DNA of 42,520 nucleotides from a virus. The position numbers and the translations under genes are program-made. A model generated the notes under the pieces. The model had not been told where the DNA came from. It searched no databases and saw only the letters and a program-made list of their open reading frames with translations. Numbering within the stretch: the stretch's first letter is position 1; the number at the start of each line of letters is the position of its first letter. Below are positions 1,955 through 42,520 of the stretch, in pieces. The stretch is taken from IMG/VR virus record IMGVR_UViG_3300043313_001107, positions 1-42,520 of that record; one strand, given 5' to 3'.

Positions 1955-2312
1955 TCACAACCTCCACATCGTTACACCCACAAGGGCAATCTAAACTGTC
2001 CTGCCAGCCTTCAGGCCAAGCATCCTCATCCGTACCATTCGCACGTATCCAGGCCAGCAGGGAGACGCCTTCAGCCGTCAGCCACGCCCAGCCTATCCCC
2101 GTCCCATGCTCGATCAGCCCCCAGTCATCCAGAACCTTCGCGCCGAACTCGCGCCAGCCAAGAACCGCGCCATCCTCAAGTTGATAGAACGAGCCGCGCT
2201 TATCGTGGTCCTCGGCAATCTCCAGAAGGTACAGGATTATGGGCCAGTTTGAATTACCACAGCCGCATAATTTCACCTTTTCGAGAAACACCTTGGCTTC
2301 GCGCAGTTTCAT
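1890..2312 (-). CDS. Hypothetical acidic protein
   Basis: A 140-residue protein starting at the ATG at 2312, which overlaps the stop codon of the upstream winged-helix gene. The N-terminal 90 residues are predicted helical with several Trp residues (WPIILYLLEIAEDHD, GWREFGAKVLDDWGLI, GWAWLTAEGVSLLAWI), reminiscent of a small winged-helix domain. The tail is Cys/Gly/Glu-rich (DCPCGCNDVEVVNGEG) and encoded in the region overlapping the next gene. No family is recognised. Confidence 0.6.
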   Translation of the reverse strand: MKLREAKVFLEKVKLCGCGNSNWPIILYLLEIAEDHDKRGSFYQLEDGAVLGWREFGAKVLDDWGLIEHGTGIGWAWLTAEGVSLLAWIRANGTDEDAWPEGWQDSLDCPCGCNDVEVVNGEGSSGERVGEGKQDFGGSS

Positions 2313-2989
2313 ACAATTCCCTCTAGCTTCGCCGTCTCCCGCGCAAACCATTCAGCCTCTTCGGGGTTACGTTCCTCCCACGATAGCCCCCCATTCGCGC
2401 GATCCCACGCGGATTGAGTGCCAAAATCGGCCGTTGTGGTGAGTTTCGGAGCCGGTTTGATGCCGCACTTGAGGCTCCACGCCTCACGGAACGACATTCG
2501 CGCGCCGTGGTTCTCCGGTCTTGGCCTAAATCGAACCCGTGGCGCAGACGCTTCAGCGTCTCGCGCAGTAGTTGTTTGTTTTTCTATCTCAAGTATCTGT
2601 TTTACCCTGACACGGGTGTCACCCCCTCCTGTCACGAAACTCTCATCGAGAACAGGGAAGGTATAGCGGTTGGTGTAGTTGGATCGGCAAGCGTATTTGC
2701 GATGCTCCACCAGCACCACACCCAGCAGCCGCAGCGCGCGAATGTGACGCCGAATGGTTCGCATATCCAGCCGGCGACGCTCCGCGATCCAGCGCACCGA
2801 GGCATAGCAGGTTCGCGTCTTCAGGTCCATCCGCTCCTGCATCACAAGGTAGGTATCACGGAGCTCTACCCGCGAAATGATGGCATCCAAGCCATGTATC
2901 CGTTTGACGAAAAGCCTAGAATTGAAGTGACTTTGACGTAATTTTGACTTGATTTTAGACGCGCGCGTTTGTACAATCGGTCTCAACAT
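2309..2989 (-). CDS. Winged-helix DNA-binding protein (replication-initiator-like)
   Basis: A 226-residue basic protein. Residues about 50-110 form a helix-turn-helix (ASVRWIAERRRLDMRTIRRH, then ALRLLGVVLVEHRK) followed by a beta-hairpin-like NRYTF segment, the arrangement of winged-helix domains in phage and plasmid replication or regulatory proteins. The C-terminal half is Arg/Pro-rich and then acidic with several Trp. I chose the ATG at 2989 because GGAG lies 7 bases upstream; a GTG six codons earlier is possible. An inverted repeat, ACTCG-N7-CGAGT, sits just upstream and could be its autoregulatory site. A replication role is a possibility only; a transcription regulator is equally plausible. 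Confidence 0.65.
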   Translation of the reverse strand: MLRPIVQTRASKIKSKLRQSHFNSRLFVKRIHGLDAIISRVELRDTYLVMQERMDLKTRTCYASVRWIAERRRLDMRTIRRHIRALRLLGVVLVEHRKYACRSNYTNRYTFPVLDESFVTGGGDTRVRVKQILEIEKQTTTARDAEASAPRVRFRPRPENHGARMSFREAWSLKCGIKPAPKLTTTADFGTQSAWDRANGGLSWEERNPEEAEWFARETAKLEGIV

Positions 2990-3005
2990 AAGGCTCTCCT
3001 GTGCC

Positions 3006-3022
3006 ACTCGTTGATAGCGAGT
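3006..3022. promoter_or_regulatory. Inverted repeat upstream of the winged-helix gene
   Basis: ACTCG-N7-CGAGT, perfectly symmetric, ends 16 bases before the chosen ATG at 2989 of the leftward winged-helix gene. It may be a dimer-binding operator or an RNA hairpin next to the ribosome-binding site. The 7-base spacing is shared with two other inverted repeats next to DNA-binding-protein genes (5479 and 32293). Confidence 0.4.
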
Positions 3023-32511: not shown

Positions 32512-32897
32512 TGATGAATACCACCCCGACCCGCTACTACATGCCCCGCAATCGCCACAAGCAGGGAGTGATGGAGTGGCAGGGAGAGAAGATCAAGGTA
32601 GATGACGGTATCCAACCCCTGCTTTTAGCCTTTAACCGCTTCGAGAACATCGCAACGAACTCCTCTTGTATCGGGGGAAAAGGGGAAAAGGGATTTGTGG
32701 GATTTGTAGGCGATAAGGCCAAGCATGTTAAGGAGCTATACCGCGCACTTGGCCCGGTCCTGGGTGAGTTTGGGGTCAGCGTCGAACTCAACAGAGCCGC
32801 CGATGGAACCACCTGGGGATGTGTGCGATGGAACCCCGAAGACTTCGACTTACTTTTAACAACAATTGAATTGATGGCAGGGAAAGAGGCACGATGA
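32511..32897 (+). CDS. Hypothetical protein linked to the ATPase
   Basis: A 128-residue protein starting at ATG 32511, overlapping the regulator stop codon, and overlapping the ATPase gene by four bases. The text (QGEKIKVDDGIQPLLLAFNR, NIATNSSCIGGKGEKGFVGF, VKELYRALGPVLGEFGVSVE, DFDLLLTTIELMAG) has a tRNA wybutosine- or Taw3-like rhythm ('N..SC.GG', 'GFVGF') but is short and lacks a proven family. Its constant coupling to the ATPase suggests a shared role. Confidence 0.55.
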   Translation: MMNTTPTRYYMPRNRHKQGVMEWQGEKIKVDDGIQPLLLAFNRFENIATNSSCIGGKGEKGFVGFVGDKAKHVKELYRALGPVLGEFGVSVELNRAADGTTWGCVRWNPEDFDLLLTTIELMAGKEAR

Positions 32898-34297
32898 GAA
32901 TTATTCGGCTGCAGGGAAGCAACGTAAAGAAGATCAAGGTAATCGACATTACCCCTAACAAGTATGTGAACCGCATCAGCGGAGGCAATGGCACAGGGAA
33001 GACCACAACCCTGGACATGATTGAAATGGTTTTGGTTGGCGGCAAGAGCATCCCCAGCCGCCCCGTTCGCACCGGAGCCGCGCGCGCCCAGATCAAGGTT
33101 GACATGGGGGAGGACTCGAGAACAGAGGTTGTACTTACCCGCCAATTCTTCGAGGGATCCGCCAAGCGCGCTGGCCGTCTCCACGTAGAGCAGATGCCTG
33201 GAGCGGATGCCACGGAGCTCCAGGAGCGCCGGCAGAAGATCACCACACCGGATGAGCTCGAAGACGCGCTATTGAAACAGGTCAGCTTTGACCCGCTGGA
33301 GTTTATGCGGATGAAACCGAAGGAGCAATATCACATCCTTCGCCGCATCTCCACCCCTGATATCGACATGGACGCGCTGGACGAGAAGATACAAGGCGAG
33401 TTTGACGCGCGCACCATTGCCGGCCGCAAGCGCGACCAGCTAGAGGCCCAGCGCGATGCTATCCAGATCCCCGAAGGTCTCCCCACCGAGCCCCGCGACG
33501 TGAAAGGCATGACGGAGGAACTTGCCCAGGTTAGCAACTACAACCTGGAGATTGAACGCGAGAGGCGCGAACGCGAGGATTACCAGCGCGAATACGAAAG
33601 GATGAAAGAAGCCACTAGATCACGCGCGGACCGTCTTGGAGAATTGCGCCTCGAGATTGAGCGGATGGAGATAGCACTTCGCCAAGACCTTGACCGCTTG
33701 GTAGAGATGGAGAAGACGGAGAAGGCATGGGAGCCCCTGGCAGAGCCGAAGGATGCCGCCGCACTCGCCGCGCAGATCGAGGAAGCCCGAATCCTTAACC
33801 GAGCGATCGAGCGCGGCCAGATGCGCGCCAAGATTGACGCTGATTACAAGGTGGCGCATGAGGAATGGAGCAAGCTGGACGCGGCCGTGAAGGAAGGCGA
33901 ACGCCGCAAGAAGGAAGCCATTGCCCACGCGAAGTATCCCGTCGAAGGTCTGGGGTTTGGCAATCAGGAAGTGATGTATAACAACCTACCGTTTGAACAG
34001 GCCAGCAACGCCGAACAGATCAAGGTCAGCGCAGCCATAGGCATGACGACTAACCGCAAGGTCCGAGTCATGAGGATCAAGGACGGGAGCCTATTGGATG
34101 ATGCCAGCCTCGCCATCATCGCGGATATGGCCCACGAGCGCGATTTCCAAGTTTTCATAGAATGTGTCGATTTGACGGGCAATGTTGGTTTCTACATGGA
34201 AGACGGCGAAGTAAAGACCGTCAACGATGAGCCCCTGGACAAACTCCCAGAGGCAAAGACGGCAAAGAAGGCCACCAAAAAGAAAGTGAGCAAGTAA
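32894..34297 (+). CDS. RecF/Rad50-like AAA ATPase
   Basis: A 467-residue protein. Walker A GGNGTGKTT lies at residues 30-38 in an N-terminal sheet typical of SMC/RecF heads. A charged coiled coil follows (about 200-260 and 300-350: ERERREREDYQREYERMKEA). The C-terminal head shows SNAEQIKVSAAIG where the ABC signature is expected and RVMRIKDGSLLDD where Walker B is expected; the usual acidic pair is degenerate. Related phage ATPases act in recombination or replication, sometimes with a nuclease partner, which is not seen next to it. Coupled to the 128-residue gene. Confidence 0.75.
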   Translation: MRIIRLQGSNVKKIKVIDITPNKYVNRISGGNGTGKTTTLDMIEMVLVGGKSIPSRPVRTGAARAQIKVDMGEDSRTEVVLTRQFFEGSAKRAGRLHVEQMPGADATELQERRQKITTPDELEDALLKQVSFDPLEFMRMKPKEQYHILRRISTPDIDMDALDEKIQGEFDARTIAGRKRDQLEAQRDAIQIPEGLPTEPRDVKGMTEELAQVSNYNLEIERERREREDYQREYERMKEATRSRADRLGELRLEIERMEIALRQDLDRLVEMEKTEKAWEPLAEPKDAAALAAQIEEARILNRAIERGQMRAKIDADYKVAHEEWSKLDAAVKEGERRKKEAIAHAKYPVEGLGFGNQEVMYNNLPFEQASNAEQIKVSAAIGMTTNRKVRVMRIKDGSLLDDASLAIIADMAHERDFQVFIECVDLTGNVGFYMEDGEVKTVNDEPLDKLPEAKTAKKATKKKVSK

Positions 34298-35978: not shown

Positions 35979-36184
35979 TGGACTACAACCTTGCAGGACT
36001 CGCACTCATTGCGTTCCTTGTTTTGTTCCTACCATCCACCGGACTCATTCACCGCCGCGCGCGCGCACTGGCAACAAGAGCAAAGCAGCAAGCAGACTCC
36101 AGAGAACTCCGAGAGTTACTACATGCGGAGGCTTATCGCGTGTTAGATGAAGAACGAAATTCAGAAGCAAATCAAACGCGATGA
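35975..36184 (+). CDS. Small membrane protein
   Basis: A 69-residue protein (start ATG 35975): one membrane helix (LAGLALIAFLVLFLPSTGLI) followed by a basic-charged coiled segment (RRARALATRAKQQADSRELR). Start overlaps the previous stop codon. An inner-membrane anchor with a cytoplasmic helix is likely; function unknown. Confidence 0.55.
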   Translation: MMDYNLAGLALIAFLVLFLPSTGLIHRRARALATRAKQQADSRELRELLHAEAYRVLDEERNSEANQTR

Positions 36185-36537
36185 CGGAAAGGCAGAGCCG
36201 AAGCATGGAAGGAAAGGTAAACGAAAATATGCTATCCCTGCAGCAAATCATGGATCGAGTTGCGGCTGGCATGACGAAAGAAGAGGCCACAACGCTACTC
36301 GCGGAGCAGGTTGCCGAGATTGTAAAGCTGGGAGTATCGGAGGAAGAGGCCACCCGCAGGATCCTTGCGAATATCGGATACTTCGCCGGCTACTACAGCC
36401 AGGAGATAGCAGATCGAGCCTATGACCTGTTTAACACGGAACATCCGATTTTTGGCAGGACTCACCCCACTCCAGAGGAAGCCTTACGCCTGGGGATGGA
36501 GTGGGGAAAGCGCAGCCGCGAGAGGAGCCAACCTTGA
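36181..36537 (+). CDS. Hypothetical helical protein
   Basis: A 118-residue protein whose ATGA start overlaps the previous stop codon. Two similar helical blocks occur (MLSLQQIMDRVAAGMTKEEA, IVKLGVSEEEATRRILANIG), suggesting an internal helical repeat. It has a polar C-terminus. No family is recognised. Its 3' end carries the ribosome-binding site of the next gene. Confidence 0.55.
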   Translation: MTERQSRSMEGKVNENMLSLQQIMDRVAAGMTKEEATTLLAEQVAEIVKLGVSEEEATRRILANIGYFAGYYSQEIADRAYDLFNTEHPIFGRTHPTPEEALRLGMEWGKRSRERSQP

Positions 36538-36854
36538 CCAACTATGACGACCTGACGCCAGAAGAACGGATCCACCTGGAGCTCACACCAGAAGAGAGGC
36601 AGAGGATTCAAGCCTTTGTTACGGAGGCCACGGCAAAGGCTCAAGAGGTTAAAAAACTATTTGGAAGCGGAACGCGCGGGATGATGATGTTCGCGTTTGC
36701 CATGCATACGTTACAAATCGCGCATCCAGTCCTATTCGACAATGCCGACATAGCGGAGCGGATGGCCGAATGGTTCGCGGCTGGAGCCCCTGAAGATTTA
36801 CGCAACATTGCAGACAAGATCATTGCTCGATGCACGAAAGGAAAGCCAAATTGA
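36534..36854 (+). CDS. Hypothetical helical protein, TTG start
   Basis: A 106-residue protein. The TTG at 36534 overlaps the upstream stop codon and is preceded by GAGAGGAG at proper distance; a GTG at 36501 is the alternative. All-helical composition (TPEERIHLELTPEERQRIQA, FVTEATAKAQEVKKLFGSG, DNADIAERMAEWFA). The repeated TPEER motif is notable. No family is recognised. Confidence 0.5.
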   Translation: MTNYDDLTPEERIHLELTPEERQRIQAFVTEATAKAQEVKKLFGSGTRGMMMFAFAMHTLQIAHPVLFDNADIAERMAEWFAAGAPEDLRNIADKIIARCTKGKPN

Positions 36855-37186
36855 GCGAACCGCAGGATAAGCCGACAGGAATCAACTTCTGGGTGCAGGG
36901 TATAGTTGCCGCGCGCAACGGGAAGCCATACGTCCAACTCTCCAATCAGGACGCCATGATCGCACAGCTAACCATTGCCGAGGCGCGCAGCATCGCCCTG
37001 GACCTCTTCCGCGCAGCCAGCTACGCCGAGGCCGACGCGATGTTACATGGATTTTTCAAGAAGATGGATTTACCGATGGCAGCGTTAGGCGCGCTAATGA
37101 TCGACTTCCGCGACTTCCGCCACGCCCTGGACATGGAGAAGGTGGACACCCGCTACTCAGATCCAGACACGGGGGAAGAAGTTTGA
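36851..37186 (+). CDS. Hypothetical protein, TTG start
   Basis: A 111-residue protein starting at TTG 36851 (TTGA overlap) with AAAGGA before it; an ATG seven codons earlier is also open. The first half is beta-rich (GINFWVQGIVAARNGKPYVQ), the second helical (AEARSIALDLFRAASYAEAD). No family is recognised. Confidence 0.55.
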   Translation: MSEPQDKPTGINFWVQGIVAARNGKPYVQLSNQDAMIAQLTIAEARSIALDLFRAASYAEADAMLHGFFKKMDLPMAALGALMIDFRDFRHALDMEKVDTRYSDPDTGEEV

Positions 37187-37404
37187 GTTTCACATGCCCA
37201 GTCTGCCACCGCGTCAGCTACAACCCAAACGACGAGAGCGCGGGATACTGTGGCCACTGTCATGCGTTCACCGGAACCCCGAATTACGAGCCATACAACA
37301 GGAGGCCCGATGGACAACAGCGATTTAGCAGCCGCAGCCCTGAAACCCGACCTGAGAGCGAAGTGCAATTGTCGGATGCAGACGAAGATGGGGAAACCAA
37401 GTAA
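37183..37404 (+). CDS. Zinc-ribbon protein
   Basis: A 73-residue protein starting at TTG 37183 in a TTGA overlap. FTCPVCHRVSYNPNDESAGY and CGHCHAF form a four-cysteine zinc ribbon in the first 30 residues; the rest is polar and disordered. The 'CP.C.R.S.NPND...GYCG.CH..T' pattern is a known small phage zinc ribbon of unknown function. It overlaps the next gene by 95 bases. Confidence 0.6.
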   Translation: MSFTCPVCHRVSYNPNDESAGYCGHCHAFTGTPNYEPYNRRPDGQQRFSSRSPETRPESEVQLSDADEDGETK

Positions 37405-37525
37405 AACGTGCCAGAAGTGCCACGGCACCGGAACCGTAACAGCATGTAAAGATTGCGAGGCAAGCGGATGGAGCAGAGTACAGAACAAGATATGCCCGAA
37501 ATGCGCCGGGACCGGACACACCTAA
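37310..37525 (+). CDS. DnaJ-type cysteine-rich small protein
   Basis: A 71-residue protein with AGGAGG before the ATG at 37310. CNCRMQ, CQKCHGTGTVTACKDCEASG and CPKCAGTGHT are repeats of the CxxCxGxG zinc motif of the DnaJ central domain. No J domain is present, so it is a free-standing zinc module. Overlaps both neighbours. Likely protein-binding by analogy with DnaJ. Confidence 0.6.
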   Translation: MDNSDLAAAALKPDLRAKCNCRMQTKMGKPSKTCQKCHGTGTVTACKDCEASGWSRVQNKICPKCAGTGHT

Positions 37526-38313
37526 CCAATTGCGACCAGTGCGCTGGCACCGGAATACTCAGAGGCGGAATCGTTTGCGGATGCCGCGAGGAAGATGACA
37601 CCGCCACCAGGAGGAGAGCCCAGATGGGAGTTTGCCCCGTAGCACACCCGCTCCGCCAGGACATACAGGCGCCGCCGAAGTTTATGCAGCATCTCCCAAT
37701 CGACAAGCGCGGCTATCCTTGCCCGTGGTTCATTGAATGGGTTGGAGGAGAGCCAGAGTTTCGCGCGGCTGACGGTCGCAAGCTGGTGAAGGCGATCAAT
37801 CAGAGACTTTGCTGGACTTGCGGAAATCCGTTATTCGGAGAAGAAGTGTTTGTGATCGGTCCAATGTGCTTGGTTAACCGCGTGAGCTCCGAGCCGCCCA
37901 GCCACAGGGAATGTGCCATCTATTCCGCAACCAATTGCCCGTTCCTATCGAAGCCCCAGATGGTACGGCGAACGGACGGACTCCCAGAAATGAAGGTTGC
38001 CGCCGCTGGGGTGATGATCGAGCGGAACCCAGGCGTATCCCTGCTGTACTACACTCGCCGGCATACCCTGATATCCAGCCCACACCTACCAAGCAAAGGC
38101 GCAAACGCAGGAGTCCTATTCAGACTGGGAAGGCCATTCAAAACGGAATGGTTCGCCCGTGGGAGGCCAGCCACGCGCGCGGAGATACTGGAGAGCATCG
38201 AGACCGGCTTACCGCTCCTGAGAGCCACAGCAGAGCAGCATGACGGCCCTGAAGGTGTGGCCGCTCTGGAGATGCAGGTACAGGAGGCCATGAGGCTGAT
38301 ACCCCGATGCTGA
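37468..38313 (+). CDS. Protein with N-terminal zinc motif, conserved phage type
   Basis: A 281-residue protein. The start is placed at ATG 37468 (GAGG 7 bases before) because the N-terminal part holds CDQCAGTGILRGGIVCGC, a CxxCxGTG zinc motif like that of the gene before it. A second possible start at 37624 has an even better GGAGGAG. From there on: HPLRQDIQAPPKFMQHLPID, RGYPCPWFIEW, and two CxxC-type clusters (LCWTCGNPLFGEEVFVIGPM, ATNCPFLSKPQM), as in a phage family of unknown function. It may carry two or three zinc sites. Confidence 0.6.
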   Translation: MEQSTEQDMPEMRRDRTHLTNCDQCAGTGILRGGIVCGCREEDDTATRRRAQMGVCPVAHPLRQDIQAPPKFMQHLPIDKRGYPCPWFIEWVGGEPEFRAADGRKLVKAINQRLCWTCGNPLFGEEVFVIGPMCLVNRVSSEPPSHRECAIYSATNCPFLSKPQMVRRTDGLPEMKVAAAGVMIERNPGVSLLYYTRRHTLISSPHLPSKGANAGVLFRLGRPFKTEWFARGRPATRAEILESIETGLPLLRATAEQHDGPEGVAALEMQVQEAMRLIPRC

Positions 38314-38768
38314 CAGGCCACCCCTTCAAGCTGATCCAGCTAAGGCAAAATGCAAGGGTGCCTTGGACGGCCTTTACTGCAGTATCGCCAGAGGATTATG
38401 GATGGCTGACAGAATACCGATGGTCTCTCAACATCTCAGGAAGCAACCGCCTGTATGCCTATACCAGCATTTTGGAAAATGGGAAATGGCGATACATAGG
38501 GATGCACCGCCTGATTGTTCAGCACAACGGCACAATAGCTGATGATGAGGTAGCAGACCACCGGAACGGCTACACCCTAGACAATCGGAGATGTAATCTC
38601 AGGCCAGCGTCAGAAGGTGTAAACAGACGCAACCGTTACCCCTTCGAGCCCATCCAGTCAGACGAGCCATACCCGCCGCCTTATGCTCCACCCACTGGCC
38701 CATTACTCCCGTCTGGAGTGGCCTACTACTACAACAAAGAGTATGGGGTGTGGCGCATCGCCCCGTAA
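38307..38768 (+). CDS. HNH endonuclease
   Basis: A 153-residue protein, start overlapping the preceding gene. The N-terminal WLTEYRWSLNISGSNRLYAY is the substrate-side strand-turn common to HNH enzymes. The core is MHRLI (67), VADHRNGYTLDNRRCNLRP (83-100). The C-terminal 40 residues (PYPPPYAPPTGPLLPSGVAY) form a Pro-rich linker into a short AP2-like or NUMOD remnant ending YNKEYGVWRI. Last gene of the rightward block, with a palindromic hairpin 10 bases past its stop codon. Confidence 0.85.
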   Translation: MLTGHPFKLIQLRQNARVPWTAFTAVSPEDYGWLTEYRWSLNISGSNRLYAYTSILENGKWRYIGMHRLIVQHNGTIADDEVADHRNGYTLDNRRCNLRPASEGVNRRNRYPFEPIQSDEPYPPPYAPPTGPLLPSGVAYYYNKEYGVWRIAP

Positions 38769-38778
38769 CACGCAAGAA

Positions 38779-38805
38779 AGCCTCTGGGAACACTTCCCAA
38801 AGGCT
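38779..38805. terminator. Convergent hairpin containing palindrome copy 4
   Basis: AGCCT-C-TGGGAA-CAC-TTCCCA-A-AGGCT: an 11-bp stem with one mismatch and a 3-base loop, in the gap between the rightward HNH gene and the leftward genes. It contains an exact copy of the TGGGAA-N3-TTCCCA palindrome at 38785-38799. It may serve as a two-sided terminator or a protein site; no T-run is adjacent. Confidence 0.55.
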
Positions 38806-38842
38806 CACCCTTGCGCCAGCCTAGCAGCCAGTTTGCCCCCGC

Positions 38843-39184
38843 TTAGAGACCTCGCGAGTTTGGATTGTATTGATTCAGCGCGTTAACTATCCGCATGGCC
38901 AGACTTCGAGATGTGCAAGTGGCCACAATCTCCCCGTTCCTTGTAATCGTGCGAACGTCGAAGCCGATCCGAAAGGCAGGACGGGGAGGCAGGTCGGGAA
39001 TGTTCCCCCGTTCCCGCGCGTCAATCATCGCGTCGTCTATCGTCTCGCCGCGACCCAGTTCCTTGGCCGCACTGAAGACGAAGAAGCCGCCGACACCCAG
39101 CCCAGGCACAACCGCAGGAGCGAAGACTTGAGCCTCCGCCAGCAATTGCAGCGCGCGCCGATGATCCAAAGGTTTATCGCTCAT
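38843..39184 (-). CDS. Hypothetical protein
   Basis: A 113-residue protein, coupled to the upstream gene by an ATGA overlap. An N-terminal helix (RRALQLLAEAQVFA), a Gly/Val-rich middle (PGLGVGGFFVFSAAKELGRG) and a C-terminal strand-helix (TITRNGEIVATCTSRSLAMR) fit a small alpha/beta fold like others in phage accessory regions. No family is recognised. It is the last leftward gene before the convergent hairpin. Confidence 0.55.
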   Translation of the reverse strand: MSDKPLDHRRALQLLAEAQVFAPAVVPGLGVGGFFVFSAAKELGRGETIDDAMIDARERGNIPDLPPRPAFRIGFDVRTITRNGEIVATCTSRSLAMRIVNALNQYNPNSRGL

Positions 39185-39573
39185 ACAGGTTCATCCTTGT
39201 CTATGAAGTAATCCAAATTACGATCCTGCAAATCCTCCGTAGTATCGACAGCACACCCGATAAGCTCCTCCAACTCCTGAGACAACGCCCACAGTTTGCT
39301 TTGAACCGCCGCCATCTGGCGATAAAGAGATTGCGCCTCGTCCCGCTGTTCATCAGTCAATTCTTCGGCCATATTGGAACCCCCAGCGCAAGCCATCGCC
39401 GCCAGATCATTAGCCTCGTAAAGAGGATCAACAATAATCCCGTTTTCGCAGCCATCCGCCACAACACTGCAGATGGAATTACCCATAATAAAAACAGCGT
39501 CAGGCACGTTTAGAACGTGGTTTATTGCGTGTTGAAGAATAAGCACAGCCTCTTGATGACCCAGCTTGGCCAT
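39181..39573 (-). CDS. Hypothetical protein
   Basis: A 130-residue protein with AAAGGGG before the ATG at 39573. A helical start (HQEAVLILQHAINHVLNVPD), a middle with two Cys (MGNSICSVVADGCENGII) and an acidic helical end (EELTDEQRDEAQSLYRQMAA, LSQELEELIGCAVDT). No family is recognised. It is part of the leftward set that includes the 49-residue protein upstream. Confidence 0.55.
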   Translation of the reverse strand: MAKLGHQEAVLILQHAINHVLNVPDAVFIMGNSICSVVADGCENGIIVDPLYEANDLAAMACAGGSNMAEELTDEQRDEAQSLYRQMAAVQSKLWALSQELEELIGCAVDTTEDLQDRNLDYFIDKDEPV

Positions 39574-39633
39574 AAAAACCCCTTTGCGCTGGAGACGGCC
39601 AGCGCGCCGGTTAGAGAAAAGAAAAAGGTGGGC

Positions 39634-39783
39634 TTACTCCGCGAGATGCGAGGCGACCTGTTTTTGTAGGTACTTTTCAGCGGAGTAAAGCCGATCCCAT
39701 GCGAAATCAATTCCGACAGCTTTGGAGCGGAGAGAGGAGATAAGGTTGATGGAGGCGATAAGGTTAGCAAGTTCAGGAGACAT
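39634..39783 (-). CDS. Small protein under a repeated promoter module
   Basis: A 49-residue protein starting at ATG 39783 with AAAGGA before it. Two predicted helices (LANLIASINLISSLRSKA, AWDRLYSAEKYLQKQVASH). It is preceded by one of three near-identical promoter-plus-hairpin cassettes. Function unknown; the strength of the cassette suggests it is highly transcribed and regulated with ArdC. Confidence 0.6.
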   Translation of the reverse strand: MSPELANLIASINLISSLRSKAVGIDFAWDRLYSAEKYLQKQVASHLAE

Positions 39784-39803
39784 GGTTTTAGTCCTTTCAG
39801 GTT

Positions 39804-39817
39804 GTGGCATCAGCCAC
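39804..39817 (-). promoter_or_regulatory. 5'-leader hairpin, module C
   Basis: GTGGC-N4-GCCAC predicted to sit at the very 5' end of the transcript from the promoter at 39829-39856, followed by AACCTGAAAGGA, the ribosome-binding site. The same arrangement is found at 41636 and 42341. It may stabilise the message or be bound by a regulator. Confidence 0.6.
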
Positions 39818-39828
39818 GGAATAAGTTG

Positions 39829-39856
39829 ATTATACATGACTCCATCATGGAGTCAA
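39829..39856 (-). promoter_or_regulatory. Promoter with internal 17-bp palindrome, module C
   Basis: Read on the - strand: TTGACT, 16-base spacer, TATAAT (perfect -10). The palindrome GACTCCATGATGGAGTC (39838-39854) overlaps the -35 and most of the spacer, so a bound dimer would exclude polymerase. The same layout drives the ArdC gene. Confidence 0.75.
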
Positions 39857-39860
39857 CACG

Positions 39861-40727
39861 TTAGAAAAGTGAAAGTTGCTTGCTTGCAGATGCGGCAGGA
39901 TAACCGTTACCCGCATCCGTTCGCCCTTCATCATCGAAAGGTTCTGTAGGTGGAAGACATTCAGCGCAGGACTCCCCATGCTTGGCATAGCAGGACGGAC
40001 AGAAGACCGCGCCAGTCTCGGAGCACTCCCCGTATTCATCCATCTGGGAGAGGTCAGCGTCACAGGCGGAGCACTCCATTGTGTCATCATCCACCGGGAC
40101 CGGCAGCGGATTGGAAGGTCTGAAATCGTGCTTTTGGATGCGATGCAGCGCGAACTTTGTAGGCTTTCCGCCCGATCCATTCCACCAGTGGCGAAGATGG
40201 CCAATACACCATTGCCGAACGTCATCAGACCGTTCACCAACCTCTAGCGAGGAGCACAGAAACGACCTGTACCCAGTAGCGGAGTAGAAACCACGATCCC
40301 ATTCAACAGCGCCAATCTCAAAGCCCCAGACGCGCGCGTTATAGGCAGACATGCCAAGGGAGCCGCCCAGCCCCTCAGTCTGAAAGTTAACCTTTGTGAT
40401 CGACACGAAAGTCTCAAAGTTACCCTTCTGGCCGAACAATGGAACGGAGCCAGGGCGCGCGCGCGTCAGCCAGTCGAAGATTTGCGCCACGTCATGGAAG
40501 CAATATCGGAAGCCCCTAGAGGTGAAACGCTCAAAGGACTCTGCGCGTTCGATGATATCTTGAGCCTCACCATAAACAGATCCCGCCGTCTCAAAGTCCC
40601 GCGCACGTACAGCCGCATCGAAGCGAATGATGCAATCACGATAGAGCGGCACGAGCTCCGCCACCGTGGAGGGGAGATGCCCAAGGTCTTTGGGCATCTC
40701 CATCACAGTCTGTTTGCTGTTATTCAT
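39861..40727 (-). CDS. Cysteine-rich protein with C-terminal clamp-binding motif
   Basis: A 288-residue protein, start overlapping the ArdC stop codon. The first ~190 residues (AELVPLYRDCIIRFDAAVRA, RFTSRGFRYCFHDVAQIFDW) are a helical/alpha-beta domain. Residues about 220-258 hold CSACDADLSQMDEYGECSET and FCPSCYAKHGESCAEC, a dense zinc-binding cluster. The last five residues are QLSLF, a canonical bacterial sliding-clamp-binding pentapeptide. It may bring the protein to the host or phage clamp. It is co-transcribed with ArdC, downstream of its promoter. Biochemical role unknown. Confidence 0.7.
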   Translation of the reverse strand: MNNSKQTVMEMPKDLGHLPSTVAELVPLYRDCIIRFDAAVRARDFETAGSVYGEAQDIIERAESFERFTSRGFRYCFHDVAQIFDWLTRARPGSVPLFGQKGNFETFVSITKVNFQTEGLGGSLGMSAYNARVWGFEIGAVEWDRGFYSATGYRSFLCSSLEVGERSDDVRQWCIGHLRHWWNGSGGKPTKFALHRIQKHDFRPSNPLPVPVDDDTMECSACDADLSQMDEYGECSETGAVFCPSCYAKHGESCAECLPPTEPFDDEGRTDAGNGYPAASASKQLSLF

Positions 40728-41617
40728 GCCGCCACCTCTTCCTCTGATGTAGCGGCAAAGGTGCGGCCCAGAATGAAATCAGCCGCCTTTTGTGCCCGTT
40801 GAGCAGCTTGGATGGCCAGCGTCTTATCATTCTTTAGCTTGCTGATCCATGTCTGGATGTACGCAACCGAGTTGCTAATTCGCTCCTCATTCGAGCATCC
40901 AGTCTCCGCGCAAAGAAACGCGGCCGCAAATTCAGCCGTTAACTCTTCCTTGCTGTAGTCCTCAGAACCAAAGCCAGTCATGGCGATTAGCTCCGCGCGG
41001 TTACAGCGAGACTTTATGCCTGTACTGTGAGCAAATTCATGGAACAGGGTAGCGTAGTAACCGCCAGCAGAGGCGAACGTCTCGCGGTTAGGCATCTGGA
41101 CATGATCCCGTGATGGAACGAAGTGCGCGCTATCGCCACCATGCGCCAGCGTAGGATGCGAGTCTGAGGCCATGAACTTAGAGACAACCGCGTCACACTC
41201 CGCGATTGGATCAAATACTTCACCCTCAAAAGGTAAATCAGCGGGTACACCGTCCAATTGCTCGATGTTGAACACGGCATAACCGCGCGCCAGTGGAGCA
41301 GCATTTTTGCCCTGTAGCTTGGCCTCGATGACCGCCTTTTTATCCGGGAATTTCCAGAACATCACGGGAGATGATTTCTCACCCTTGCGAACCTGATATC
41401 CCAGTTCCAAAGCCTGCTTGTAGGTACACCAACCCTGTGACGTATAGCCAGAGCAGAGGAGAGAAAACACGTTCGCTCCACGGTACGGCTTACCAGATGC
41501 AAGGTTGTAGGGCATCCCTGAAGTCTTTCCAGAGGTTCGCCATTCCTTGCGCCACGGAATTTTACCGGACTCAAGAGTTGAGATTATGCGGTCAGTAATT
41601 GTTTCGTAAATGGACAT
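40724..41617 (-). CDS. ardC: ArdC-type antirestriction/ssDNA-binding metalloprotease-like protein
   Basis: A 297-residue protein. The N-terminal ssDNA-binding domain (about 1-130) begins MSIYETITDRIISTLESGKI, then PWRKEW, RGANVFSLL and YQVRKGEKS, all ArdC hallmarks. The C-terminal zincin-like domain has HEFAHSTG (193-200) and an EELTAEFAAAF segment with the likely third ligand Glu229. In plasmids, ArdC protects entering DNA against restriction by binding single strands. It has its own promoter with an internal palindrome and a 5' hairpin leader. It is coupled to the clamp-motif protein downstream. Confidence 0.92.
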   Translation of the reverse strand: MSIYETITDRIISTLESGKIPWRKEWRTSGKTSGMPYNLASGKPYRGANVFSLLCSGYTSQGWCTYKQALELGYQVRKGEKSSPVMFWKFPDKKAVIEAKLQGKNAAPLARGYAVFNIEQLDGVPADLPFEGEVFDPIAECDAVVSKFMASDSHPTLAHGGDSAHFVPSRDHVQMPNRETFASAGGYYATLFHEFAHSTGIKSRCNRAELIAMTGFGSEDYSKEELTAEFAAAFLCAETGCSNEERISNSVAYIQTWISKLKNDKTLAIQAAQRAQKAADFILGRTFAATSEEEVAA

Positions 41618-41635
41618 TGAACTGCCTTTCAGGTT

Positions 41636-41649
41636 GTGGCATCCGCCAC
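41636..41649 (-). promoter_or_regulatory. 5'-leader hairpin, module B
   Basis: GTGGC-N4-GCCAC at the predicted 5' end of the ArdC transcript, followed by AACCTGAAAGG and the start codon. It matches modules A and C apart from the loop. Confidence 0.65.
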
Positions 41650-41660
41650 GGAATAAATTG

Positions 41661-41688
41661 ATTATACATGACTCCATGATGGAGTCAA
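41661..41688 (-). promoter_or_regulatory. ArdC promoter with internal 17-bp palindrome, module B
   Basis: On the - strand TTGACT (41683-41688), 16-base spacer, TATAAT (41661-41666). Palindrome GACTCCATCATGGAGTC at 41670-41686 overlaps the -35 and spacer. It is identical to module C except for the central base, evidence that one repressor controls both. Confidence 0.78.
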
Positions 41689-41696
41689 ACCGCGCA

Positions 41697-42320
41697 CTAG
41701 GCGCGCGCTAACCGCGCGCGCCTTATGTGCTTTTGGAGTTGCTGCAAAGATTCCCGGATATTGTTGTTAGCTTCCTTGACGATGCGCTGGACGTTCGGTG
41801 CTTCGATGCCGGGAACTTCCTCGCTCCACACGCGCGTTAGCAGGTCTGCAGTCTCTTTAGAGATACCCTGAGTGGAGAAACGAACAGCCTCGCATCTGGA
41901 CGTGAAACGTGTCTCAAATCGCTCTGTTTCGTTACAGGTGAAAATAATGACAGTGTTTTCTGGCCTGTTAGTGGAATCAAGGATCGACAGCCAAGCGAGT
42001 TGTGCGGCTGGACTCATCTGGTCTGCCTCATCCACTAGGACAACATGGAATCCGCCAAACATAGGCTTATAGGCCAGTCTGGAGCGCAATGCTTTGACAG
42101 TATCAACGGTACAACTCTGAGACGGTACGTGATGGAGTTGAGCTCCCATTTCATCAGCCAGCGCCAGCGCCAGCGAAGTCTTACCAGTTCCGGGAGCTCC
42201 CACAAACAGGAGTGCGGTACTGTATGGATCATTCAGCAATTCCATTGCAAGGTCTTTTGCGTCTTGCATCCCGATAAAATCGACTACCTTGGTTGGCTTG
42301 TACTTTTCGACTAATAGCAT
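41697..42320 (-). CDS. Minimal AAA+ clamp-loader-like ATPase
   Basis: A 207-residue protein starting at ATG 42320. It has a clamp-loader opening (LLVEKYKPTKVVDFIGMQDA), Walker A GAPGTGKTS (41-49), Walker B VVLVDEAD (93-100), sensor 1 FTCN (127-130), the SRC arginine-finger motif (141-143) and a sensor 2 region NNNIRESLQQL (about 186-196). Clamp-loader subunits (DnaX, RFC, T4 gp44) are usually 320 residues or more and add a collar domain; here only the AAA+ module is present. It could be a compact phage loader, a decoy that interferes with the host loader, or an AAA+ of other use. It leads the leftward cassette under module A. Confidence 0.8.
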   Translation of the reverse strand: MLLVEKYKPTKVVDFIGMQDAKDLAMELLNDPYSTALLFVGAPGTGKTSLALALADEMGAQLHHVPSQSCTVDTVKALRSRLAYKPMFGGFHVVLVDEADQMSPAAQLAWLSILDSTNRPENTVIIFTCNETERFETRFTSRCEAVRFSTQGISKETADLLTRVWSEEVPGIEAPNVQRIVKEANNNIRESLQQLQKHIRRARLARA

Positions 42321-42340
42321 GGGGTGAGTCCTTTCAGGTT

Positions 42341-42354
42341 GTGGCCAGCGCCAC
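42341..42354 (-). promoter_or_regulatory. 5'-leader hairpin, module A
   Basis: GTGGC-GCTG-GCCAC on the - strand, followed by AACCTGAAAGGACT and the ATPase start. It shares the eleven bases GGCCAGCGCCA (+ strand) with the tandem repeat at 42423 onwards. Confidence 0.6.
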
Positions 42355-42365
42355 GGAATATTTAG

Positions 42366-42395
42366 AAGGTAGCGCGCCAGTTCGGAACGTGTCAA
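42366..42395 (-). promoter_or_regulatory. Promoter of the clamp-loader-like gene, module A
   Basis: On the - strand TTGACA, 18-base spacer, TACCTT (aligned with TATAAT of modules B and C by the identical distance to the leader hairpin). The spacer holds a different small palindrome, GTTCCGAAC (42380-42388). Nine bases upstream of the -35 lies TGGGAA-N3-TTCCCA, copy 5. Confidence 0.6.
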
Positions 42396-42403
42396 CTAAA
42401 AAG

Positions 42404-42418
42404 TGGGAATCGTTCCCA
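42404..42418. repeat. TGGGAA-N3-TTCCCA palindrome, copy 5
   Basis: Exact repeat with spacer TCG, extended to GTGGGAATCGTTCCCAC (42403-42419). It is just upstream of the module A promoter, in the position of an activator or repressor site for the leftward clamp-loader/ArdC set. Confidence 0.65.
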
Positions 42419-42422
42419 CAAT

Positions 42423-42520
42423 AGGCCAGCGCCAACCGCCAGCGAACGACCTGCGAGGCCAGCGCCAACCGCCAGCGAACGCGACCTGCGAGGCCAGCGC
42501 CAACCGCCAGCGAACGACCT
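42423..42520. repeat. Tandem 33-35 bp repeats at the right end
   Basis: Two full units and a 30-base partial one: 42423-42455 (33 bp), 42456-42490 (35 bp, with two extra bases GC) and 42491 to the window end. Each unit starts AGGCCAGCGCCAACCGCCAG and contains GCCAGCG twice. The window stops inside the array, so the copy number is not known. They could be origin iterons or an assembly boundary. Confidence 0.75.

Follow-up and report, generated by a model that had tools for sequence, protein, structure and literature searches.

A clamp-loader-like ATPase, an ArdC protein and a KlcB-domain protein with a terminal clamp-binding motif form a possible establishment module in a probable Acidobacteria phage

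Results and discussion

Three leftward genes at the end of a phage genome

The DNA analysed, referred to here as the window, is a virus record from IMG/VR; it spans 42,520 bases, and no end repeats are on record for it. At its right end, three genes lie in leftward order and encode an AAA+ ATPase, an ArdC protein and a 288-aa protein, P0001.

41697..42320, minus strand: AAA+ clamp-loader-like ATPase, 207 aa, core and lid, no collar (Pfam, PHROG, AlphaFold fold match)
40724..41617, minus strand: ArdC, ssDNA-binding N-domain and zincin metallopeptidase domain, 297 aa (Pfam, phmmer)
39861..40727, minus strand: P0001, 288 aa, with a KlcB domain, a Cys cluster and QLSLF at the C-terminus (tblastn, BLASTP, motif statistics)
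39861..39878, minus strand: codons for QLSLF and stop, beta-clamp-binding motif (translation, consensus QL[S/D]LF)

Our tentative reading, to which we give somewhat less than an even chance, is that these genes form an early, repressor-controlled module by which an Acidobacteria phage would establish itself and replicate with the host replisome. Host RNA polymerase would fire the AAA+ and ArdC operons from similar leftward promoters, which are recognizable in the sequence; early timing and a repressor are inferred. ArdC, as a homolog of R388 ArdC, would then bind ssDNA and block restriction of the phage DNA. The co-translated KlcB-domain protein would dock on the host beta clamp by QLSLF, as its motif and the mostly conserved pocket of the clamp suggest. 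Finally, and least surely, the collarless ATPase, whose gene adjoins a possible iteron array, might target the host clamp itself or a loader complex that includes host subunits, so as to place or remove clamps at phage forks; its fold and motifs are those of a clamp-loader ATPase.

P0001 ends in a consensus clamp-binding motif

A preliminary description of this DNA had proposed that the cassette might protect entering single-stranded DNA and take over or disturb the host clamp. The third protein was found to end in QLSLF exactly as described: P0001 ends KQLSLF, and no other ORF in the window ends in QL[SD]LF. In the composition of the window, any one C-terminus would read QL[SD]LF with a probability of approximately 1.2e-6. 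The consensus for clamp binding is QL[S/D]LF, and Bacillus subtilis PolC has QLSLF itself at its C-terminus (PMC12309361), while QLxLF represents the highest-affinity class within the broader consensus Q-phi-x-[LM]-[FL] (PMC11139829). As the last five residues of P0001, the motif conforms to the broader consensus and is accessible. Docking of P0001 on the host beta clamp via QLSLF is the best-supported new function in the cassette, and we regard it as likely. A cysteine cluster lies near residues 218-258; its Pfam match to FYVE was insignificant (E 0.03), and the AlphaFold model of P0001 alone was unusable (pLDDT 42).

The phage probably infects soil Acidobacteria. This host is proposed because relatives of the AAA+ protein, the sole basis for the assignment, occur in Acidobacteria assemblies: eight of the nine relatives in bacterial assemblies (39-51% identity) came from sequences titled Acidobacteria or an acidobacterial taxon. 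Relatives at 39% identity or more are also present in viral contigs. Three of these Acidobacteria assemblies encode DnaN proteins in which 13 of 16 checked pocket residues are kept (R152, L155, T172, G174, H175, L177, F241, P242, V247, M362, P363, M364 and R365), while the residues corresponding to R246 and S346 of Escherichia coli are alanine. DinB-type proteins of the same assemblies carry QADLF or QLDLL. Since no clamp motif was found in host DnaE under the pattern used, the test of host motifs rests on the DinB-type proteins and the clamp pocket.

Because QLxLF is of the high-affinity class (PMC11139829), a small early protein bearing a motif of consensus strength would rival host polymerases, and P0001 might thus serve to shut off host replication by blocking the host clamp, possibly with the AAA+ protein stealing or unloading clamps, so that resources pass to the phage. 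Phage and toxin precedents exist in Twort gp168 and SocB, which, as P0001 may be, are small mobile-element or host proteins aimed at the host clamp. The listed site of action of gp168, however, is the DNA channel, with no QLSLF tail involved, a description that sets it apart from P0001. A general clamp blockade would also be self-defeating, because the phage itself seems to need the polymerase and clamp of its host, and the KlcB-like domain and ArdC partner look like plasmid establishment genes, not toxins. We therefore consider host shut-off unlikely.

The N-terminal domain of P0001 resembles plasmid KlcB

KlcB is a family of IncP and IncW plasmids with no assigned function. P0001 matched plasmid KlcB in tblastn (E 8e-4 to 1e-2) and in pairwise BLASTP (down to 3e-10), a relationship absent from the preliminary description. 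Its N-terminal domain has the KlcB pattern GxxPLxGQxGxF ... FxSxTGYRS. The tblastn and BLASTP alignments covered mainly residues 15-180, and in neither did P0001 match the second half of the long form of KlcB from IncP plasmids.

The plasmid genes occur in similar company. The maintenance region of R388 (IncW) holds ardC and klcB, and both PardC and the klcB promoter are repressed by ArdK (PMC3937220). Among the IncP-type klcB genes sampled, most come after an antirestriction gene, the IncP operon being klcA-klcB-korC. The window differs from R388 and IncP in the direct ATGA overlap of the P0001 gene with ArdC and in the replacement of the IncP KlcB C-terminal domain by the Cys cluster and QLSLF. 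In addition, IncP klcA belongs to a different antirestriction family (ArdB type) from the ArdC of the window, and no AAA+ gene was noted in the plasmid klcB neighbourhoods viewed. Deletion of klcB from pB10, like deletion of klcA, did not significantly affect restriction (PMC11602122).

Canonical terminal motifs were found in two KlcB-domain proteins, P0001 (QLSLF, C-terminus) and that of viral locus L192 (QLSML, N-terminus). Near-motifs in which position 4 is a non-canonical F were present at the C-termini of the R388 (QIAFGF) and Thalassospira (QIGFQF) proteins and at the N-terminus of viral L191 (QFAFDF); the terminal-motif pattern applied to KlcB proteins was partly framed after examples had been seen, and only Thalassospira, a later find, provides an independent check. 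The KlcB-domain proteins of L190 and Pandoraea had no terminal clamp motif, and QLRLI in the long IncP KlcB is ambiguous, as it may belong to a folded domain. It is conceivable, if somewhat improbable, that KlcB-domain proteins are sliding-clamp ligands which, together with antirestriction proteins, help DNA that enters a cell to become established, with the phage AAA+ protein as the matching ATPase on the host clamp. If true, this would give plasmid KlcB a testable function and would link anti-restriction with recruitment of the host clamp as DNA enters. It would also offer a natural collarless clamp-loader ATPase for learning which loader parts are needed, and an entry point into the replication of Acidobacteria phages.

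The AAA+ protein is clamp-loader-like and ends after the lid

As the preliminary description had stated, the AAA+ protein is a collarless clamp-loader-like ATPase. All ATPase motifs were recovered: Walker A GAPGTGKT at residue 41, Walker B VVLVDEAD at 93, sensor 1 TCNE at 128, SRC at 141 and sensor 2 NNNIRESL at 185. These agree with the motifs of clamp loaders (RFC/gp44/DnaX), and most of the motif columns were invariant or near-invariant in clade alignments. Pfam matches were AAA (1.2e-14) and DNA_pol3_delta2 (4.6e-13), and the best PHROG match was PHROG 168, phage clamp loaders (E 1.4e-32, residues 10-211 of 314). The AlphaFold model (pLDDT 91) matched the fold of RFC, DnaX-gamma and T4 gp44 minus the C-terminal collar, with TMt 0.56 against a full RFC subunit and 0.71 against RFC domains 1-2. 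At 207 aa the protein stops after the lid and has no collar, and in the first family alignment all nine further proteins stop at this point as well. Most of the best viral matches in BFVD are at least 280 aa long, and the nearest relatives in isolated phages have approximately 31% identity by tblastn. Many of the longer clade members (L005, L006, L007, L008, L011, L128 and L157) start M-x(0-2)-LF, and these N-termini (MSLF, MDLF, MNTLF, MDNLF and MLLF) recall half a clamp motif.

Clamp loaders normally require the collar for assembly, and its absence counts against action of this protein on the clamp. We consider this action the least certain step of the proposed module and rather doubtful. 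The likeness to T4 gp44/gp62 and the RFC small subunits (PHROG 168) lies in the AAA+ core, lid, Walker, sensor and SRC motifs and fold; the window protein differs in having no collar, no recognised gp62-like partner and no phage clamp or polymerase of the families searched. The preliminary description knew of no system with this trio, but the families of ArdC and of phage clamp loaders are both known, and a phage loader of RFC type without a detectable clamp has been described in subgroup 3.1 jumbo myophages (PMC7824862). Those phages differ in having a T7-like polymerase and large genomes, whereas the window is approximately 42 kb, has no recognised polymerase of the searched families, and its loader-like protein is collarless and ArdC-linked.

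The claim that the phage encodes no visible polymerase or clamp was borne out for the families searched: clamp (PF00712), PolA (PF00476) and Pol III alpha (PF07733) had no matches in 15 related viral records, which may be incomplete; the polymerase families covered were PolA and Pol III alpha. DnaB (PF03796) had no match above the cut-off in the same records; a match in G002, below the cut-off, was the P-loop of the AAA+ protein itself. PHROG profile comparison identified an O-like HTH initiator at 2309-3007, kept in one relative, G002 (40%). With an O-like initiator and no recognised clamp, helicase or polymerase of the searched families, the phage probably borrows those of the host. An SbcC/RecF-like ATPase (PHROG 1499) is encoded at 32894-34297 and is common to L004, L010, L044 and L157.

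Tandem repeats lie next to the AAA+ gene.

42423..42520, no strand assigned: repeats of 33-35 bp in tandem, close by the AAA+ gene on its upstream side (TRF)

Equivalent arrays were found upstream of the AAA+ gene at contig ends in L002 (111-259), L003 (180-364) and L044 (120-208). Periods in related phages were 22, 33 or 35, and shorter repeats of 11-bp period were present in L005 and L006. The arrays may be iterons or a genome-end feature.

The O-like initiator, the repeats beside the AAA+ gene, the lack of a recognised helicase and the missing collar would also suit a helicase loader in the role of lambda P or DnaC, working with the initiator at the repeat array, with the clamp-loader likeness ancestral and the QLSLF protein separate. 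Nevertheless, similarity to the helicase-loader family PHROG 50 (7e-5) was weaker than to PHROG 168, and the SR(C) motif and an N-terminal KY(R/K)P box are conserved across the AAA+ clade, which argues against this role. We consider it improbable.

AAA+ and ArdC genes are linked beyond the window

The assignment of ArdC held up. The protein is full length with both ArdC domains, ArdcN (2.3e-33) and MPTase-PolyVal (2.1e-33), the latter with HEFAH (HExxH) at residue 193, and phmmer matched it to the solved ArdC structures 6I89/6SNA with E 1.7e-50. R388 ArdC binds ssDNA and counters HsdRMS, and its protease activity is not needed (PMC7213743). By this homology, the ArdC of the window would protect phage DNA.

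The preliminary description had suggested a neighbourhood survey. The exact trio was limited to the window, the near-identical L002 and a fragment, L013, as was KlcB-domain P0001, so conservation of the trio in other genomes was not borne out; the AAA+–ArdC pair, however, recurs. In our survey of loci with our own profiles, the order AAA+ then ArdC was found in the window, L002, L003, L004, L006, L008 and L157, and the order ArdC then AAA+ in L125 and L128. A protein with only the ArdC N-domain precedes AAA+ in L124, L129 and L131, with Pfam ArdcN confirmed in L124 and L129. These short proteins, from Acidobacteria assemblies, are encoded at L124 2331-2714, L129 4412-4759 and L131 9340-9711. 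Linkage of AAA+ with ArdC or ArdcN was thus present in 12 of 25 clade loci and in none of 76 control loci of distant clamp loaders (Fisher p 4e-9, or 1.8e-8 minus one near-duplicate, in a test that ignores shared ancestry). DUF932 adjoins AAA+ in the place of ArdC in L005, L007 and L127, and neither gene lies beside AAA+ in 10 of the 25 loci, some of which end short.

In L003 and L157, the slot overlapping ArdC holds another family, P0004/P0005, whose members are 46% identical to each other and have a terminal clamp motif, QLSMF (C-terminus) or QLGLF (N-terminus). Terminal clamp motifs therefore occur in this slot in three divergent lineages (QLSLF, QLSMF and QLGLF) and in two non-homologous proteins; with a chance of approximately 6e-6 per terminus, three lineages are not expected by chance. 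P0001 and P0004 of L003 look alike by eye, but homology was not supported (best BLASTP 0.018 over the Cys stretch; HHalign probability 0.1). ORF scans of the ArdC neighbours in L004, L006 and L008 revealed no clamp motifs. Two related-looking Cys-rich proteins, L044 1671-2021 and L003 3053-3466, have possible further clamp motifs: one ends QGSLF and the other starts MNQPNLF if begun at an internal ATG.

For the proposed protection and clamp takeover, the recurring terminal motifs, the mostly conserved host pocket and the AAA+–ArdC linkage in two gene orders are favourable; against it, the trio is not conserved, the families are known, and any clamp binding, loading or inhibition is putative.

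The cassette appears to comprise two transcription units

The following elements recur in this region.

42330..42356, minus strand: leader hairpin GTGGC-GCTG-GCCAC and Shine-Dalgarno of the AAA+ gene (recurring leader)
41625..41688, minus strand: promoter TTGACT-16-TATAAT, spacer palindrome TGACTCCATNATGGAGTCA, leader hairpin and Shine-Dalgarno (expected to drive ArdC and P0001)
39793..39856, minus strand: second full promoter/operator/leader copy, downstream of the cassette, before a small gene at 39634-39783 (64-nt repeat)

The 64-nt promoter/leader repeat is 95% identical between its two copies, one before ArdC and one before the 49-aa gene past the cassette. Each has a 19-nt palindrome with 9-nt arms in the promoter spacer, followed by the GTGGC/GCCAC hairpin and a Shine-Dalgarno sequence; no palindrome accompanies the leader of the AAA+ gene. 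Although the three genes had been described as adjacent and sharing a promoter style, only their adjacency and the likeness of the AAA+ and ArdC leaders were confirmed. The leader copies lie at 42330 before the AAA+ gene, at 41625 before ArdC and at 39793 before the small gene past the cassette. The P0001 start overlaps the ArdC stop (ATGA), which places its gene in the ArdC operon without a promoter of its own; the cassette thus consists of two transcription units, not three single-promoter genes.

The leader also precedes other leftward genes in several relatives, the third gene varies among relatives and DUF932 can replace ArdC (L005, L007 and L127), as would be expected of an ordinary early region of independent, co-expressed accessory genes in which ArdC serves anti-restriction alone and the job of the AAA+ protein is unrelated to it. 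This explanation accounts poorly for the co-occurrence of AAA+ with ArdC or ArdcN in both orders and in Acidobacteria assemblies, but not at distant clamp-loader loci, and for terminal clamp motifs at the low per-terminus chance given above in the same slot of three lineages. We consider it quite unlikely.

The hairpins are short and their stability against shuffles was not striking (z -0.5 to -2.2), so that support for the leader comes from recurrence and not from energy. No Rfam match was found at 36000-42520. In the window and in L003, L004, L010, L044 and L157, a stem-loop with a Shine-Dalgarno sequence recurs before several leftward genes per genome, and the stem varies by genome (GTGGC/GCCAC, GCGGC/GCCGC, TGGGC/GCCCA and GCGGG/CCCGC). 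Stems and promoter-spacer palindromes that differ between genomes hint at genome-specific repressors.
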